Numbered from the stretch's first letter, positions 29,212-37,950 are shown. The stretch: DNA of 64,000 nt from Prochlorococcus sp. AG-409-I11 (GCA_003215725.1 QCJX01000004.1:1-64000), one strand, 5' to 3'. A program made the numbers and translations. The notes: generated from the letters alone by a model not told the origin.

Positions 29212-30327
29212 TCAATCAAGTTGCTTATTCATAAAAAGTAAAATAGAATCCCATTGGCTTTCGATGCTTTCCAGTAGTTTAAATTGTACTTCTGCTCTAA
29301 AGAGATTATGAGCAGGATACTCTGTCCTGAAATATAAATTACCTAAGAAATAATCCGATAGAAACCTTAAACCTAGTTCGAAAGTTATAATTTTAATGGA
29401 GTTCGCTATAGAAACAATGCTAAAGTTGTTCAAAAAATTGGGATAGGCTTTAATGTAGCCATCTAACATAGACTGACAATAATGCAAATTAAAAGAAACA
29501 TCTAATAAGTCTTGCGGATCTTCTCCTCCAATATTACAAATAGAGCGTAAGCAATCTCCGAGATCATAAAGAATACAACCAGGTTGAGCAGTGTCTAAAT
29601 CTATAATAGATCTAAATAATAGACTTTTTTGATCAAAAAGAAAATTTGAAATCTTGGGATCTCCGTGTATGAGTTGTAAGCCCAAATTATTTTCTGAAGA
29701 TCGAAAGTCTAATAAATATATATAATCCTTTCTTTGATCTACAAAATTAATTAGTTTGGTGATACGTGAGTTGAATTGAAAACAATCAGCATTTAAACCC
29801 TTAAAAAACTTGAAAGATTGAACAAGATTGTGATAATGATGTTTGGTATTATGCAAATTCGGAATAATTGTATGTAATTTATTTACGGGTAGGTCATGAT
29901 AATTATAATGAAATGAACCCAACCCGTAACCTACTTGATAAGCTATAGATTCAGATGGAACACATCTATAAGTAGTTGAAGAGTCTACAAATTCGTAGGC
30001 TCTCCAAAACTGACCATCCAATTCTAATAAAAAATTATCTGATTTCACTAATGGAATAAGCCTAGGCAGAATAGAACTAGAATTAAAAAGACTAGGAGAT
30101 TTGTCAAATTCTGCAAAATCATAAATATAAATATAGTTGGAAATTAACTTAAAGGGATCAGAGAAGACTGAAGTATTGATCTGTTGCAAAATTAACTTTT
30201 CAGGAAAACCAGAGTTTAAGGATTCAACTAAAAATGTTTGATTAATATTACCTATAGATAATTTAGTAACGGAAATATTATTAGGACTCCTAGAAAAGCT
30301 CGATGCTATCTTATTAAGTTGAACCAA
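29212..30327 (-). CDS. APH-fold sugar kinase, NahK-like
   Basis: A 371-residue small-molecule kinase of the aminoglycoside phosphotransferase/choline kinase fold. The catalytic loop is LIHGDPKISNFLFD (near residue 220), followed by the metal-binding IDLDTAQPGCILYDLGDCLR. The latter closely resembles N-acetylhexosamine 1-kinase (NahK), in which the Asp of DLDT is the metal ligand. It probably phosphorylates a sugar or sugar derivative at C1. The start is TTG. The next gene upstream on the same strand encodes an unrecognised 504-residue protein, and a StpA-like phosphatase is divergent beyond it. Substrate unknown; antibiotic resistance is unlikely. Confidence 0.8.
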   Translation of the reverse strand: MVQLNKIASSFSRSPNNISVTKLSIGNINQTFLVESLNSGFPEKLILQQINTSVFSDPFKLISNYIYIYDFAEFDKSPSLFNSSSILPRLIPLVKSDNFLLELDGQFWRAYEFVDSSTTYRCVPSESIAYQVGYGLGSFHYNYHDLPVNKLHTIIPNLHNTKHHYHNLVQSFKFFKGLNADCFQFNSRITKLINFVDQRKDYIYLLDFRSSENNLGLQLIHGDPKISNFLFDQKSLLFRSIIDLDTAQPGCILYDLGDCLRSICNIGGEDPQDLLDVSFNLHYCQSMLDGYIKAYPNFLNNFSIVSIANSIKIITFELGLRFLSDYFLGNLYFRTEYPAHNLFRAEVQFKLLESIESQWDSILLFMNKQLD

Positions 30328-30453
30328 AATTTCTATTTCTTTTTAATTTAACATACAACTATAGCCAAGCAAGCAATGCTATCCTAATCAGAATGAAATT
30401 TTAAAGTATTTCAAAGATTAATAGACATATTAAATCTAAGGCCAATATTAATA

Positions 30454-31968
30454 TTAGTTAAATTGATCATTTATTAATTGAATAGCTCTTAAGTATGCAG
30501 AAGATGATTGAGAAAAATTCATGTCATTGGATTGGCTTGGAAGGGGAGAGATTCTAGTACCTGAATTATTTAGAATACAATCTAATATATAATTAAAGGA
30601 TTCTTTTTTATCTAAAGAGTTAAGCTCTTGATAAACTTTTTTTGTATGTGAAGGCGATACAGATTCCTGGCAATAATTACTAAGTTCTCGACTTTGTGTT
30701 AAAACTTGATGGATAACTTGTTTCATATCCTTAGAAGCATAAATACTCATATATAAAAGATTAACTAGAGAACAGTCATTTAATGGGATCTGGTATTTAC
30801 TACGAATGTCAGGCCAAATTTTTAAAGAATTCAAACCTTCCAGAGCCCCTTGTTTTAATCCTGCGTCTGCACACCAAATGAGAAATTCATTAAGATCTTC
30901 AGGACACCTACCTAATCTATTAATATTTTGAGCTAACACTACGCCTGCTTGAAAATTTCTTGTTGGTTTACCGTTTAAAGGTTTTATAAGGCTTCCATTA
31001 ATGTCTGCCACGACGGCTGTAAGCTGGGAAAAAGTATGATCTCTAACATGAGGCTTATCGTATTGATTTAATAGTGAAGCTTCTATACGTTGAACACCAT
31101 AACCTAGCTGATTCAAAGTAAAAGTTTGCTGAAGATATAATGTATCTCTATCTTTCCTTATCATAGAAATAGATGCTGCTTGATCTAAGCATTGACTAGA
31201 TAAAAGGGTTAAGATTGTGGGTAACAGGCCTGGATTTTCCTGATGGAAGGTTAAAGCAAATCCAGAAAAGATGGAAGCCATATTTTTAGATGCTTTTATA
31301 TATTGGCATTCAAGATTATGAACACCTGCTGAAACTTGTATATTTGGAGATAATTTGTCTAACAAGTAAGAACCAAAAGCTGCTGTGATCGAATCTGGAT
31401 GAGTAAAGTTGGCTGTAAAACTATCTAAGGGATTACGAAGATCTGAATGTCTATGAAACCCAGAAAAGAAAGCAAGTTGAGGAAACTTTTCACATAAAAG
31501 ATAAGAGTCATTAGTAGTATTGTCATGACAAAAAGATCCGGCAAGGCAAGCAATAACAACATTAGGTCGATTGAGTTCATCTCTTAACTTAATAGCCAAC
31601 ATTAAGTCTTCCTCTATGTAATTGCTATTGGCAGATAAAAGAACTAAATCACACCTTAAAATTAAATCAGAAAGTTTATTAGTTATTAAATTATTCCCTT
31701 CATAGTGCATTGACATATGACTCATAACCGAAAGATGATTTGAGTCCATGTTGGATAGTGTTATCGAATCAAAAGCTCCAAGAAGTGATCTGTTGGGCCT
31801 TGGAGCTAAAAGCAACCACTGTCCATTGGTTTGCATTGCGCTGTTATAAGCAAGTGAGGCTGGGTAAAGACCAATGCTATAAAAGCCTATTTTCCCAGAC
31901 TTAAGTTCATTTATACGTCTTGATATAGAATTCTGATCTATTAAATTGCGAAAAAAAGAATTATACAT
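30454..31968 (-). CDS. Unrecognised 504-residue protein, dehydrogenase-like layout
   Basis: I cannot name this family. The first ~180 residues look like a divergent Rossmann domain: GKIGFYSIGLYPASLAY (29-45), then ILRCDLVLLSANSNYIEEDL (102-121) and NVVIACLAGSF. A mostly helical region follows with GVHNLECQYIKASKNMASIF (near 215), the position where glycerol-3-phosphate and related dehydrogenases carry their catalytic lysine-containing helix. These similarities are by eye only, and the GxGxxG signature is not intact. No signal peptide. Upstream of the NahK-like kinase (126-base gap) and divergent from the phosphatase (143 bases between chosen starts). Confidence 0.72.
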   Translation of the reverse strand: MYNSFFRNLIDQNSISRRINELKSGKIGFYSIGLYPASLAYNSAMQTNGQWLLLAPRPNRSLLGAFDSITLSNMDSNHLSVMSHMSMHYEGNNLITNKLSDLILRCDLVLLSANSNYIEEDLMLAIKLRDELNRPNVVIACLAGSFCHDNTTNDSYLLCEKFPQLAFFSGFHRHSDLRNPLDSFTANFTHPDSITAAFGSYLLDKLSPNIQVSAGVHNLECQYIKASKNMASIFSGFALTFHQENPGLLPTILTLLSSQCLDQAASISMIRKDRDTLYLQQTFTLNQLGYGVQRIEASLLNQYDKPHVRDHTFSQLTAVVADINGSLIKPLNGKPTRNFQAGVVLAQNINRLGRCPEDLNEFLIWCADAGLKQGALEGLNSLKIWPDIRSKYQIPLNDCSLVNLLYMSIYASKDMKQVIHQVLTQSRELSNYCQESVSPSHTKKVYQELNSLDKKESFNYILDCILNNSGTRISPLPSQSNDMNFSQSSSAYLRAIQLINDQFN

Positions 31969-32111
31969 AATTTAAAATCTCATCTAAATTAAATATAAAA
32001 AAATCATGGCATTTATAATCTTCAGGGAGAAGTATATATTTAATGAAATGGATAATAGTATCAACTATCTGAACTTATTGCTATTATAGCACATAAGTGC
32101 AAGATCTATCA

Positions 32112-33320
32112 ATGAGTAATCAAATATCCAATGCTGGTTATATAGAGATTCTGTCGAATAAGTCTAATTTACTTATAATTCAAGACATAGATGGTGTTTG
32201 TATTCCACTGGTAAATAATCCAATGAATAGGGTGATTAGTAGGGACTATGTGATGTCAGCCAATAAATTAAAAGGAAATTTTTATGTTCTAACCAATGGA
32301 GAGCATGGTGGTAAAAGAGGAGTGAATAGGGTTATTGAAAAATCTTTTGAAAGTAACAAAATCCTAGATGCTTCACCATACTTTCTTCCTGGACTAGCTG
32401 CAGGTGGAGTTGAATACCAGAACGAGAGTGGAAATATAGTTTTTCCAGGAGTGAGAAAAGATGAAATTAATTTCTTAAAAAATGTTCCAAACCTTCTCAA
32501 TCCAAGATTTTTATTAAAACTAAAAGAAATATTTCCTAAGAGTAATGAATCAGAATTAATGAGACTAACAAAAAAATCTATACTCGACACAAGACTTTCC
32601 CCAACTATTAACCTTAATGCATTATTTAAATTGTGTAAAAATGAAATAGAATTAAAAATTAAACTTCAAGAAGCAGCATTCAATGTAATGCAATCGATAA
32701 TGTTAGAAGCAGGAAAATCAAATATGTCCACATCCTTCTATCTTCATATTGCTCCAAATCTAGGGAAAGTAGATGGTAAAGAGTTAATTAAATATGCAAA
32801 TGAAGATGATATAGGAACTACAGATATTCAATTTATGATAAGTAATGCCGTCAAAGATGCTGGGGTATTGTTTCTGCTAAATACTTACATTAAGAATAAA
32901 ACTGGCGTGGCACCATTTGGCGATCATTTTAATGTTAGAGAGGCACCAAAGCTCATGGATCAACAAATAGAACTATGTCTAAGAAATATTAAAAAAGAAG
33001 AAATGCCAACTATTGTAGGTGTTGGAGATACAGTTACTTCATCAAAAAAACAGTCGTCGAATATTAGATTAAGGGGAGGTAGTGATAGAACATTTCTAAC
33101 CTTAATTCAGGAAATAGGAAAATGCTACGATAAAAATAATATTATTATATTTGTAGATAGTAGTGATGGAGAAGTATATAGACCTTCAATAAATAGTAAT
33201 GAAGGGATAACAGATAAGGATGATATACTAAAATTCAATATAACTATGACTAAAGGACATAAAGAATATCTACAATGGTTTCAAGCATTATCAAGGGAAA
33301 TAGTTAATAAGAGGAACTAA
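32112..33320 (+). CDS. stpA: Glucosylglycerol-3-phosphate phosphatase-like (StpA/GgpP)
   Basis: A 402-residue protein matching StpA, the phosphatase that releases the osmolyte glucosylglycerol from its phosphate in Synechocystis. The N-terminal LLIIQDIDGVCIPLVNNPMNRVI is the HAD-like DxDGVC motif and following block of that family, and the length is close to Synechocystis StpA (about 420). Further family-like segments are FYVLTNGEHGG and TIVGVGDTVTSSKK near the C-terminus. The partner synthase ggpS is not in this window. The frame also opens at a GTG five codons earlier; neither start has a Shine-Dalgarno. Substrate here is inferred from homology. Confidence 0.83.
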   Translation: MSNQISNAGYIEILSNKSNLLIIQDIDGVCIPLVNNPMNRVISRDYVMSANKLKGNFYVLTNGEHGGKRGVNRVIEKSFESNKILDASPYFLPGLAAGGVEYQNESGNIVFPGVRKDEINFLKNVPNLLNPRFLLKLKEIFPKSNESELMRLTKKSILDTRLSPTINLNALFKLCKNEIELKIKLQEAAFNVMQSIMLEAGKSNMSTSFYLHIAPNLGKVDGKELIKYANEDDIGTTDIQFMISNAVKDAGVLFLLNTYIKNKTGVAPFGDHFNVREAPKLMDQQIELCLRNIKKEEMPTIVGVGDTVTSSKKQSSNIRLRGGSDRTFLTLIQEIGKCYDKNNIIIFVDSSDGEVYRPSINSNEGITDKDDILKFNITMTKGHKEYLQWFQALSREIVNKRN

Positions 33321-33424: not shown

Positions 33425-34363
33425 ATGAAGTTCCCTGAAATAAGAAGGGGTGAGCTCACAACTTTACAAGTAAATATTGGCTACAAATGTAATCAAGCTT
33501 GTGTTCATTGTCATGTAAATGCTAGTCCAATCAGAACAGAAATGATGAGCAATGAGACCCTATTATTGATACTGAAGGTACTAAAAAAATATAAAATTAA
33601 AACTTTAGATATAACTGGGGGTGCTCCTGAGATGCATCCAGGATTTAAAGGGTTGGTAATTAAAGCTAGAGAAATTGGAGTAGAGGTGATAGACAGGTGT
33701 AATTTAACAATCTTAACTGAGAAAGGGTACGAAGAGATGGCAGAATTTCTTGCTAACAATAAGGTTACCGTAACAGCCTCATTGCCTTGTTATGAAAAGA
33801 ACAATGTTGATTTACAAAGAGGAAGGGGTGTATACGAGAGAAGTATAGAAGGATTAATTAAATTAAATAAATTAGGCTATGGCATTCCAGACTCTGACAA
33901 TGGAAAGGTACTTAATCTAGTATATAATCCCTTGGGAGCGAGCCTCCCTCCAGAACAAATTGAATTAGAAAAGAGCTATAGAATTGCTCTATACGAGAAG
34001 TATAAGATAACCTTCAATAATTTATTCACAATAACAAATATGCCTATACAAAGATTCAAAATGCAATTAAAAAGAAGTAATGAGTTAGAAGAATATCAAA
34101 AATTGTTATATGATTCTTATAATTCTGAGAACATAAAATCAGTTATGTGCAGAAGCTTAATAAGTGTTGATTGGGAAGGAAATATCTTTGACTGTGACTT
34201 TAACCAACAGTTAGGTATAAAAGTTAAAGGTAATTATAAAAAATTAGTGGATCTTATTAACAATCAAGTTAATCTTAGTGGAAATGTAATTCAAGTAGGT
34301 AGTCATTGTTATGGTTGCACTGCTGGTTGTGGCTCAAGTTGTGGTGGTGCATTGAAGAGCTAA
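33425..34363 (+). CDS. arsS: Radical SAM protein, ArsS type
   Basis: A 312-residue radical SAM enzyme. The cluster motif is CNQACVHCH (CxxxCxxC, about residues 19-26), followed by TLDITGGAPEMHP, VIDRCNLTIL and the C-terminal HCYGCTAGCGSSCGGAL, which all match ArsS, the enzyme attaching an adenosyl group to dimethylarsinate in arsenosugar synthesis. The C-terminal Cys cluster is characteristic of the family. No arsM-type methyltransferase is adjacent. It stands alone, 104 bases after stpA. Confidence 0.88.
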   Translation: MKFPEIRRGELTTLQVNIGYKCNQACVHCHVNASPIRTEMMSNETLLLILKVLKKYKIKTLDITGGAPEMHPGFKGLVIKAREIGVEVIDRCNLTILTEKGYEEMAEFLANNKVTVTASLPCYEKNNVDLQRGRGVYERSIEGLIKLNKLGYGIPDSDNGKVLNLVYNPLGASLPPEQIELEKSYRIALYEKYKITFNNLFTITNMPIQRFKMQLKRSNELEEYQKLLYDSYNSENIKSVMCRSLISVDWEGNIFDCDFNQQLGIKVKGNYKKLVDLINNQVNLSGNVIQVGSHCYGCTAGCGSSCGGALKS

Positions 34364-36930: not shown

Positions 36931-37950
36931 TTAAATATTGAATTCTGAATCGATATTAATTAATTTAGAGCTACTAACCCATAAATCTTTAGCTAATTGA
37001 TCATTCATTGCTTCATTACTTATTTCACTTTCCTCAAATTGAAATCTACCAAATCCCATCACTCTATTAGAATAGTATCTAAAGCCGGGAGAAGAGTATT
37101 GTTCTTTTGTTGATATCTCAAATAATATTCTTCCAGCATTCTTTGGACTATCAGAGAACTTTAAAACATCTCTAGCTAGAAAAGCAAAAATAATTTGACC
37201 AACATTATTATATTGTCTACTGTAACGGAAAAAGCCTTGGTTTCCTTTAGGTATAATAAGACCAGGAGCCCATGCTATAACAGGCACCTCTAGATTTTTA
37301 TCTATGAGTATTTTAGATAAGTGTCTGGCAAAAAGTATATTACAAAGCTTACTATCCTTGTAAGCTTTGTCTGCATTAAATTCTGATATACCATCAAGCA
37401 TATCAAATGCTTGATGGTAATTAATTCCTTGTAAATTATTTAATGAGGCTTTTCTACCAATAGATCCTCCAGAGGATTTAGGGTTATGAACTTCTGAAGA
37501 GGTTATAATAATCCTTGGATTATCTGACTTAAGTATTAATGGTAATAGTAATCTTGTCAAATAATAATGTCCTAAATGATTGACAGCAAAAGTCAATTCA
37601 TACCCTTGTACTGATTTGATTGGTTTTTTTGCACCTGTGTATTGAAGACCTGCATTTAATATCAAAATATCAATTTCAATACCTTTGGCGACAGCTTCAT
37701 TTTTGAATTTGTTTATAGATTCAAGATCACTCAAGTCTAGTATTGGAGTAGATAAAATTGAAGGGTCTGAATTCTTAAGATTCATATGGTTTTGCAAATT
37801 CTTGTATGTATTTTCTGCGGTAGAAGTATTTTTACATGGCATTATAAGTCTGTACCCAGCTTTAGCTAATAATAATGCTGTTTGATAACCAATTCCAGAA
37901 GAAGCTCCTGTAATTAGAATAGTTTTATTATCCAGATGATCTTTGTACAT
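36931..37950 (-). CDS. Short-chain dehydrogenase, protochlorophyllide-reductase-like
   Basis: A 339-residue NAD(P)H-dependent SDR. The cofactor motif TGASSGIGYQTALLLAKAG (residues 15-33), NAG in ILNAGLQ (about 99-105), and the catalytic block with the Tyr-x-x-x-Lys in AYKDSKLCN (about 194-202) are all present. The overall layout (NHLGHYYLTRLLL, long C-terminus with NVGQIIFAFLARDV) resembles light-dependent protochlorophyllide reductase and its paralogues. Light-dependent POR in cyanobacteria is more conserved than this, so it is probably a paralogue with another substrate. Confidence 0.82.
   Translation of the reverse strand: MYKDHLDNKTILITGASSGIGYQTALLLAKAGYRLIMPCKNTSTAENTYKNLQNHMNLKNSDPSILSTPILDLSDLESINKFKNEAVAKGIEIDILILNAGLQYTGAKKPIKSVQGYELTFAVNHLGHYYLTRLLLPLILKSDNPRIIITSSEVHNPKSSGGSIGRKASLNNLQGINYHQAFDMLDGISEFNADKAYKDSKLCNILFARHLSKILIDKNLEVPVIAWAPGLIIPKGNQGFFRYSRQYNNVGQIIFAFLARDVLKFSDSPKNAGRILFEISTKEQYSSPGFRYYSNRVMGFGRFQFEESEISNEAMNDQLAKDLWVSSSKLINIDSEFNI

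Follow-up and report, generated by a model that had tools for sequence, protein, structure and literature searches.

A probable glycerol-3-phosphate dehydrogenase of marine picocyanobacteria encoded divergently from stpA

Which enzyme makes glycerol-3-phosphate (G3P) in marine picocyanobacteria, and is it encoded by a gene of no known family that lies beside stpA? G3P is the backbone of membrane lipids and is needed by every cell with ester-linked glycerolipids; GlpA/GlpD normally oxidises it. According to two genome comparisons, the usual G3P enzyme is lacking in the principal picocyanobacteria of the ocean, Prochlorococcus and marine Synechococcus: Prochlorococcus and WH7803 have no annotated EC 1.1.1.94 (PMC3369817), and gpsA is found only in freshwater and SC5.2 strains, the FAD-dependent GlpA being pointed to as the marine variant (PMC9361551). 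We analysed a 64,000-nt stretch of DNA (the window) from a 1.33 Mb, 74% complete Cyanobiaceae genome, in which a 504-residue protein, here called p504, is encoded divergently from stpA. Our analysis indicates that p504 is probably a divergent G3P dehydrogenase, one that took the place of GpsA in marine picocyanobacteria and feeds G3P into glucosylglycerol synthesis. No paper naming p504 or resolving the G3P dehydrogenase gap was found in our literature searches. If correct, p504 would fill a gap in the metabolic models of Prochlorococcus and marine Synechococcus, represent a G3P dehydrogenase family with an unusual cofactor loop that is invisible to current profile libraries, and tie osmolyte synthesis to membrane-lipid supply.

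Organization of the p504/stpA locus

The ORFs of a sugar kinase-like protein, p504 and an StpA-like phosphatase are present where an earlier sequence-only reading of the window had placed them, with the stpA frame opening at a GTG ahead of the possible ATG start (Table 1). That reading had also named the phosphatase correctly: the protein matches TIGR02399 with 490 bits (cut-off 365.5) and carries the HAD motif D30-I-D-G-V-C together with G-V-G-D-T. The divergent p504/stpA pair is conserved far beyond chance in the loci of relatives, and most loci of Prochlorococcus and marine Synechococcus show the order arsS-stpA<>p504-(kinase), where <> marks the divergent pair. arsS adjoins stpA in most loci examined; the arsenosugar literature searched contains no link to StpA. 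Promoter-like matches in the p504/stpA intergenic region are no commoner than in shuffled sequence.

The wider neighborhood holds an SDR-family protein (window 36931-37950), conserved near the locus in many relatives, whose match to light-dependent protochlorophyllide reductase stays below the threshold (156 bits, cut-off 331). In some marine genomes an inserted SbcC/SbcD-like (Rad50/Mre11-like) gene pair separates p504 from the kinase (L113, 10044-14011; also L111 and L129).

Table 1. Features of the p504/stpA locus, in window coordinates
Feature	Position	Strand	Description
NahK-like (N-acetylhexosamine 1-kinase-like) APH-fold kinase	29212..30327	-	371 aa
p504	30454..31968	-	504 aa ORF; divergent glycerol-3-phosphate-dehydrogenase-fold protein (predicted)
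p504/stpA divergent intergenic region	31969..32096		128 bp
stpA/ggpP	32097..33320	+	407 aa from GTG; possible ATG start at 32112; glucosylglycerol-3-phosphate phosphatase homologue
arsS, ArsS radical SAM (arsenosugar biosynthesis)	33425..34363	+	TIGR04167, 447 bits; directly downstream of stpA

Predicted fold and active-site motifs of p504

p504 has no match in Pfam, NCBIfam or the PDB sequences, in line with its earlier description as a protein without a known family, and no member of a 32-row family alignment has a meaningful Pfam or NCBIfam match, PF01210 and PF07479 included. An AlphaFold model of p504 itself, computed together with 32 relatives, reaches a mean pLDDT of 87.1 and a pTM of 0.87. 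Its 13 best PDB matches in Foldseek, with E-values from 8e-9 to 2e-7, are without exception G3P dehydrogenases (human, Plasmodium, Leishmania, Dunaliella and Archaeoglobus), and the next structural class, other members of the 6-phosphogluconate-dehydrogenase-like superfamily, follows at E 5e-5. A second model, of an orthologue 45% identical to p504, is of lower confidence (pLDDT 75), and its 15 best matches are again all G3P dehydrogenases. By these matches both models have the fold of NAD(P)-dependent G3P dehydrogenases (Rossmann plus helical C-terminal domain), so that the layout of such enzymes, suspected previously, is recovered by structure prediction and fold search. TM-scores against G3P dehydrogenase structures are moderate, mostly 0.60-0.71 by target and lower by query, owing to the roughly 150 additional residues of p504. 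At the sequence level, the hhalign comparison of the p504 profile with GpsA is not significant (probability 0.1) and the overall profile alignment is weak (z 4.8; 32.9 against 28.2 for the reversed control).

Local similarity to GpsA is concentrated in two motifs. Every 20-residue segment of the p504 profile was compared, without gaps and with no prior choice, with every such segment of a cyanobacterial GpsA profile, and the two top pairs among the 138,710 contain the R-N motif (p504 R337 N338, GpsA R227 N228) and the K-N motif (p504 K228 N229, GpsA K163 N164). Both are invariant in the p504 family and are the equivalents of R269-N270 and K204-N205, conserved active-site residues of human GPDH that grip the substrate phosphate and lie at the reacting carbonyl, respectively (PMC12874384). 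The region of human K120 and D260 aligns unreliably with p504 and equivalents were not located there; manual placement suggests that the position of K120 is not a lysine.

The dinucleotide loop of p504 reads S31-x-G33-x-x-P36 where GpsA has GxGxxG, the ungapped alignment setting I-G-F-Y-S-I-G-L-Y-P against I-G-I-Y-G-Q-G-A-W-G. This is the cofactor motif that had been called broken, and because SxGxxP is common to the whole p504 family the loop is altered rather than decayed. R57 and R60 are invariant after strand 2 and R57 aligns with GpsA R33; on account of this retained arginine, p504 probably uses NADPH. A GFHRH motif is invariant in p504 and absent from GpsA, and p504 has an extra C-terminal region. 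Since p504 is recognized by neither PF01210 nor PF07479 and does not have GxGxxG, we treat it as a new variant instead of filing it as a GpsA member.

Distribution of p504, GpsA and glucosylglycerol genes

Among 300 Cyanobiaceae genomes p504 is present in 159 and stpA in 165, and the two occur together in 157 of the 167 genomes having either. GpsA was scored by PF07479 because PF01210 alone gave weak partial matches in Cyanobiaceae; canonical GpsA is found in 126 of the 300 genomes, always as a strong match. The presence/absence sets were transcribed by hand and their totals equal the computed tallies. The 197 near-complete Cyanobiaceae genomes, to which the complementarity counts refer, divide into 100 with p504 only, 74 with gpsA only, 21 with both and two with neither (G013 and G072); in G013 the expected start of p504 falls at a contig end, no more than about 80 bases from stpA. 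By the tree, the p504-only genomes may amount to no more than one or two lineages, so that the Fisher value of 7e-32 overstates independence. In 16 p504-only genomes searched for glpK and GlpD both are absent, having been lost together, and p504 is the sole candidate G3P source found there among those searched (gpsA, glpK and glpD included), although G3P uptake or an unknown enzyme could also contribute. glpD is missing from many Prochlorococcus, and marine strains bearing glpD and glpK exist, the source genome included.

A scan of named genomes also found p504 in WH7803, WH5701, SynAce01 and Cyanobium CH-040 and ATX 6A2. Beyond Cyanobiaceae it occurs in the marine cyanobacteria Xenococcus, Hyella, Acaryochloris, Leptolyngbya and Zarconia, where it lies apart from stpA; homologues at L175 (8706-10217) and L207-L244 (Xenococcus, Acaryochloris, Leptolyngbya) are 65-79% identical to the picocyanobacterial copies. 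No p504 was found in viral contigs and phage records.

The earlier observation that ggpS is missing holds for the 64,000-nt window and fails for the genome, which carries ggpS on another contig (G000:C19:8849-10291) beside GH13-glpK-glpD-GH13 genes. The 95 near-complete genomes with gpsA link p504 closely to the glucosylglycerol genes. Here p504 and stpA are both present in 20, p504 alone in one, stpA alone in three and neither in 71, and the corresponding numbers for p504 and ggpS are 21, zero, five and 69. The patchy occurrence of p504 following stpA and ggpS in these genomes agrees with retention of a G3P dehydrogenase to serve osmolyte synthesis. In three loci of genera g10 and g25 (L101, L108 and L120) the p504/stpA pair lies between ggpS-side ABC transporter genes and GH13-glpD-glpK genes, in a cluster comprising ggpS, a four-gene ABC transporter, a GH13 gene, glpD, glpK and mscS. 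In Synechococcus RCC307 the pair is located between GH13 and the same transporter genes. Cyanobium CH-040 and ATX 6A2, both p504-positive, are the only freshwater strains named as having ggpSP (PMC9361551). We considered a first origin of p504 inside the glucosylglycerol cluster and dropped it, as the tree nests the copies of gpsA-bearing genomes among marine copies.

The glucosylglycerol cluster of the source genome (G000:C19, locus L136, 1637-9328) comprises glpK, glpD, ggpS and two GH13 enzymes. Given that gghA is reported absent from marine picocyanobacteria (PMC6753628), one of these GH13 proteins could be the missing degrading enzyme.

Most Prochlorococcus have kept stpA and p504, still adjoining, without ggpS. 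In eight ggpS-less Prochlorococcus loci (L099, L102, L103, L104, L105, L114, L118 and L134) StpA has the substitutions N67C and G103C (window numbering) at two positions that do not vary among twenty copies from ggpS-bearing genomes, and its catalytic HAD motif is intact; L111, from a 99%-complete genome, and L131, from one that is 64% complete, are the exceptions. The eight loci are probably of one ancestor and thus count as one event. These substitutions suggest that the role of StpA has changed in ggpS-less Prochlorococcus. That p504 and the substituted StpA form a new route there, leading from DHAP through G3P to glycerol or to another glyceryl glycoside, such as one linked to the neighboring arsS, is conceivable and, in our estimate, rather unlikely.

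Explanations for p504 and comparison with known systems

In the explanation we favor, p504 would reduce DHAP to sn-glycerol-3-phosphate, probably with NADPH. In salt-tolerant picocyanobacteria it would supply G3P as the acceptor to GgpS, whose product StpA would dephosphorylate to glucosylglycerol. Prochlorococcus and most marine Synechococcus have lost canonical GpsA, and there p504 would also be the G3P source for membrane lipids, a presumably essential role.

A protein with the G3P dehydrogenase fold could act on another phosphorylated substrate, or could serve the glucosylglycerol pathway in a binding or regulatory role without redox chemistry, as the altered loop, the invariant GFHRH motif, the extra C-terminal region and the hhalign result without a sequence-level relation to GpsA would allow. 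We consider this unlikely, because no segments match GpsA better than those with the K-N and R-N motifs and because p504 is present in essentially all gpsA-less near-complete genomes, streamlined ones without ggpS included. The complementarity of p504 and gpsA could also be a coincidence of lineage, p504 being a marine marker while another, unknown enzyme or a reversed FAD-dependent GlpD, as implied by a previous comparison (PMC9361551), supplies G3P. The gpsA-less genomes do fall in few clades, and glpD and glpK are present in some marine strains. The 16 p504-only genomes without glpD and glpK, together with the predicted fold and the motifs of p504, make such a coincidence decidedly improbable.

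The sequence-only reading had instead joined kinase, p504 and StpA in one module, which might follow an undescribed route to make a glycosylated solute, to salvage it or to remodel it. The kinase gives 48 bits against APH (Pfam PF01636) and 150 bits against NahK structures (PDB 4wh1/4ocj), and it is a frequent but inconstant downstream neighbor of p504, adjoining it in about half of the examined loci. The retention of stpA and p504 in ggpS-less Prochlorococcus, with two conserved cysteine substitutions in StpA, also speaks for a module. However, the kinase is distributed independently of p504 and stpA across the 300 genomes: it occurs in 214, many without either gene, and is absent from every sampled g18 genome, where both are kept. 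We therefore rejected the three-gene unit and retain its p504/stpA part. Nor is an undescribed route needed for the source genome, which has a standard ggpS/stpA pair, and the module is very unlikely to be correct. G3P supply and substitution for GpsA, which that reading had missed, is the stronger explanation.

Among known systems, NahK is represented by the structures that the neighboring kinase matches (150 bits); the kinase is a putative N-acetylhexosamine kinase and is inconsistently linked to p504 or stpA. The GgpS-GgpP/StpA pathway of Synechocystis and marine Synechococcus shares with our locus an StpA assigned by TIGR02399, the placement of p504 within the pathway's gene cluster in some strains and the ggpS of the source genome, whereas most Prochlorococcus hold stpA and p504 without ggpS; the literature searched contains no description of p504 as a member of this pathway. 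GpsA/GPD1 (PF01210 and PF07479) resembles p504 in predicted fold, K-N and R-N motifs and complementary genomic distribution. In contrast to GpsA/GPD1, p504 has no Pfam or NCBIfam match, SxGxxP in place of GxGxxG, a GFHRH motif and a length of about 504 residues, against about 305-350. Dunaliella salina DsGPDH (PDB 6iuy), a long osmolyte-related G3P dehydrogenase, is among the top fold matches of both p504 models. The Dunaliella enzyme serves osmolyte synthesis and is fused to a phosphatase domain, whereas StpA is encoded by a separate, divergent gene and belongs to another phosphatase family.
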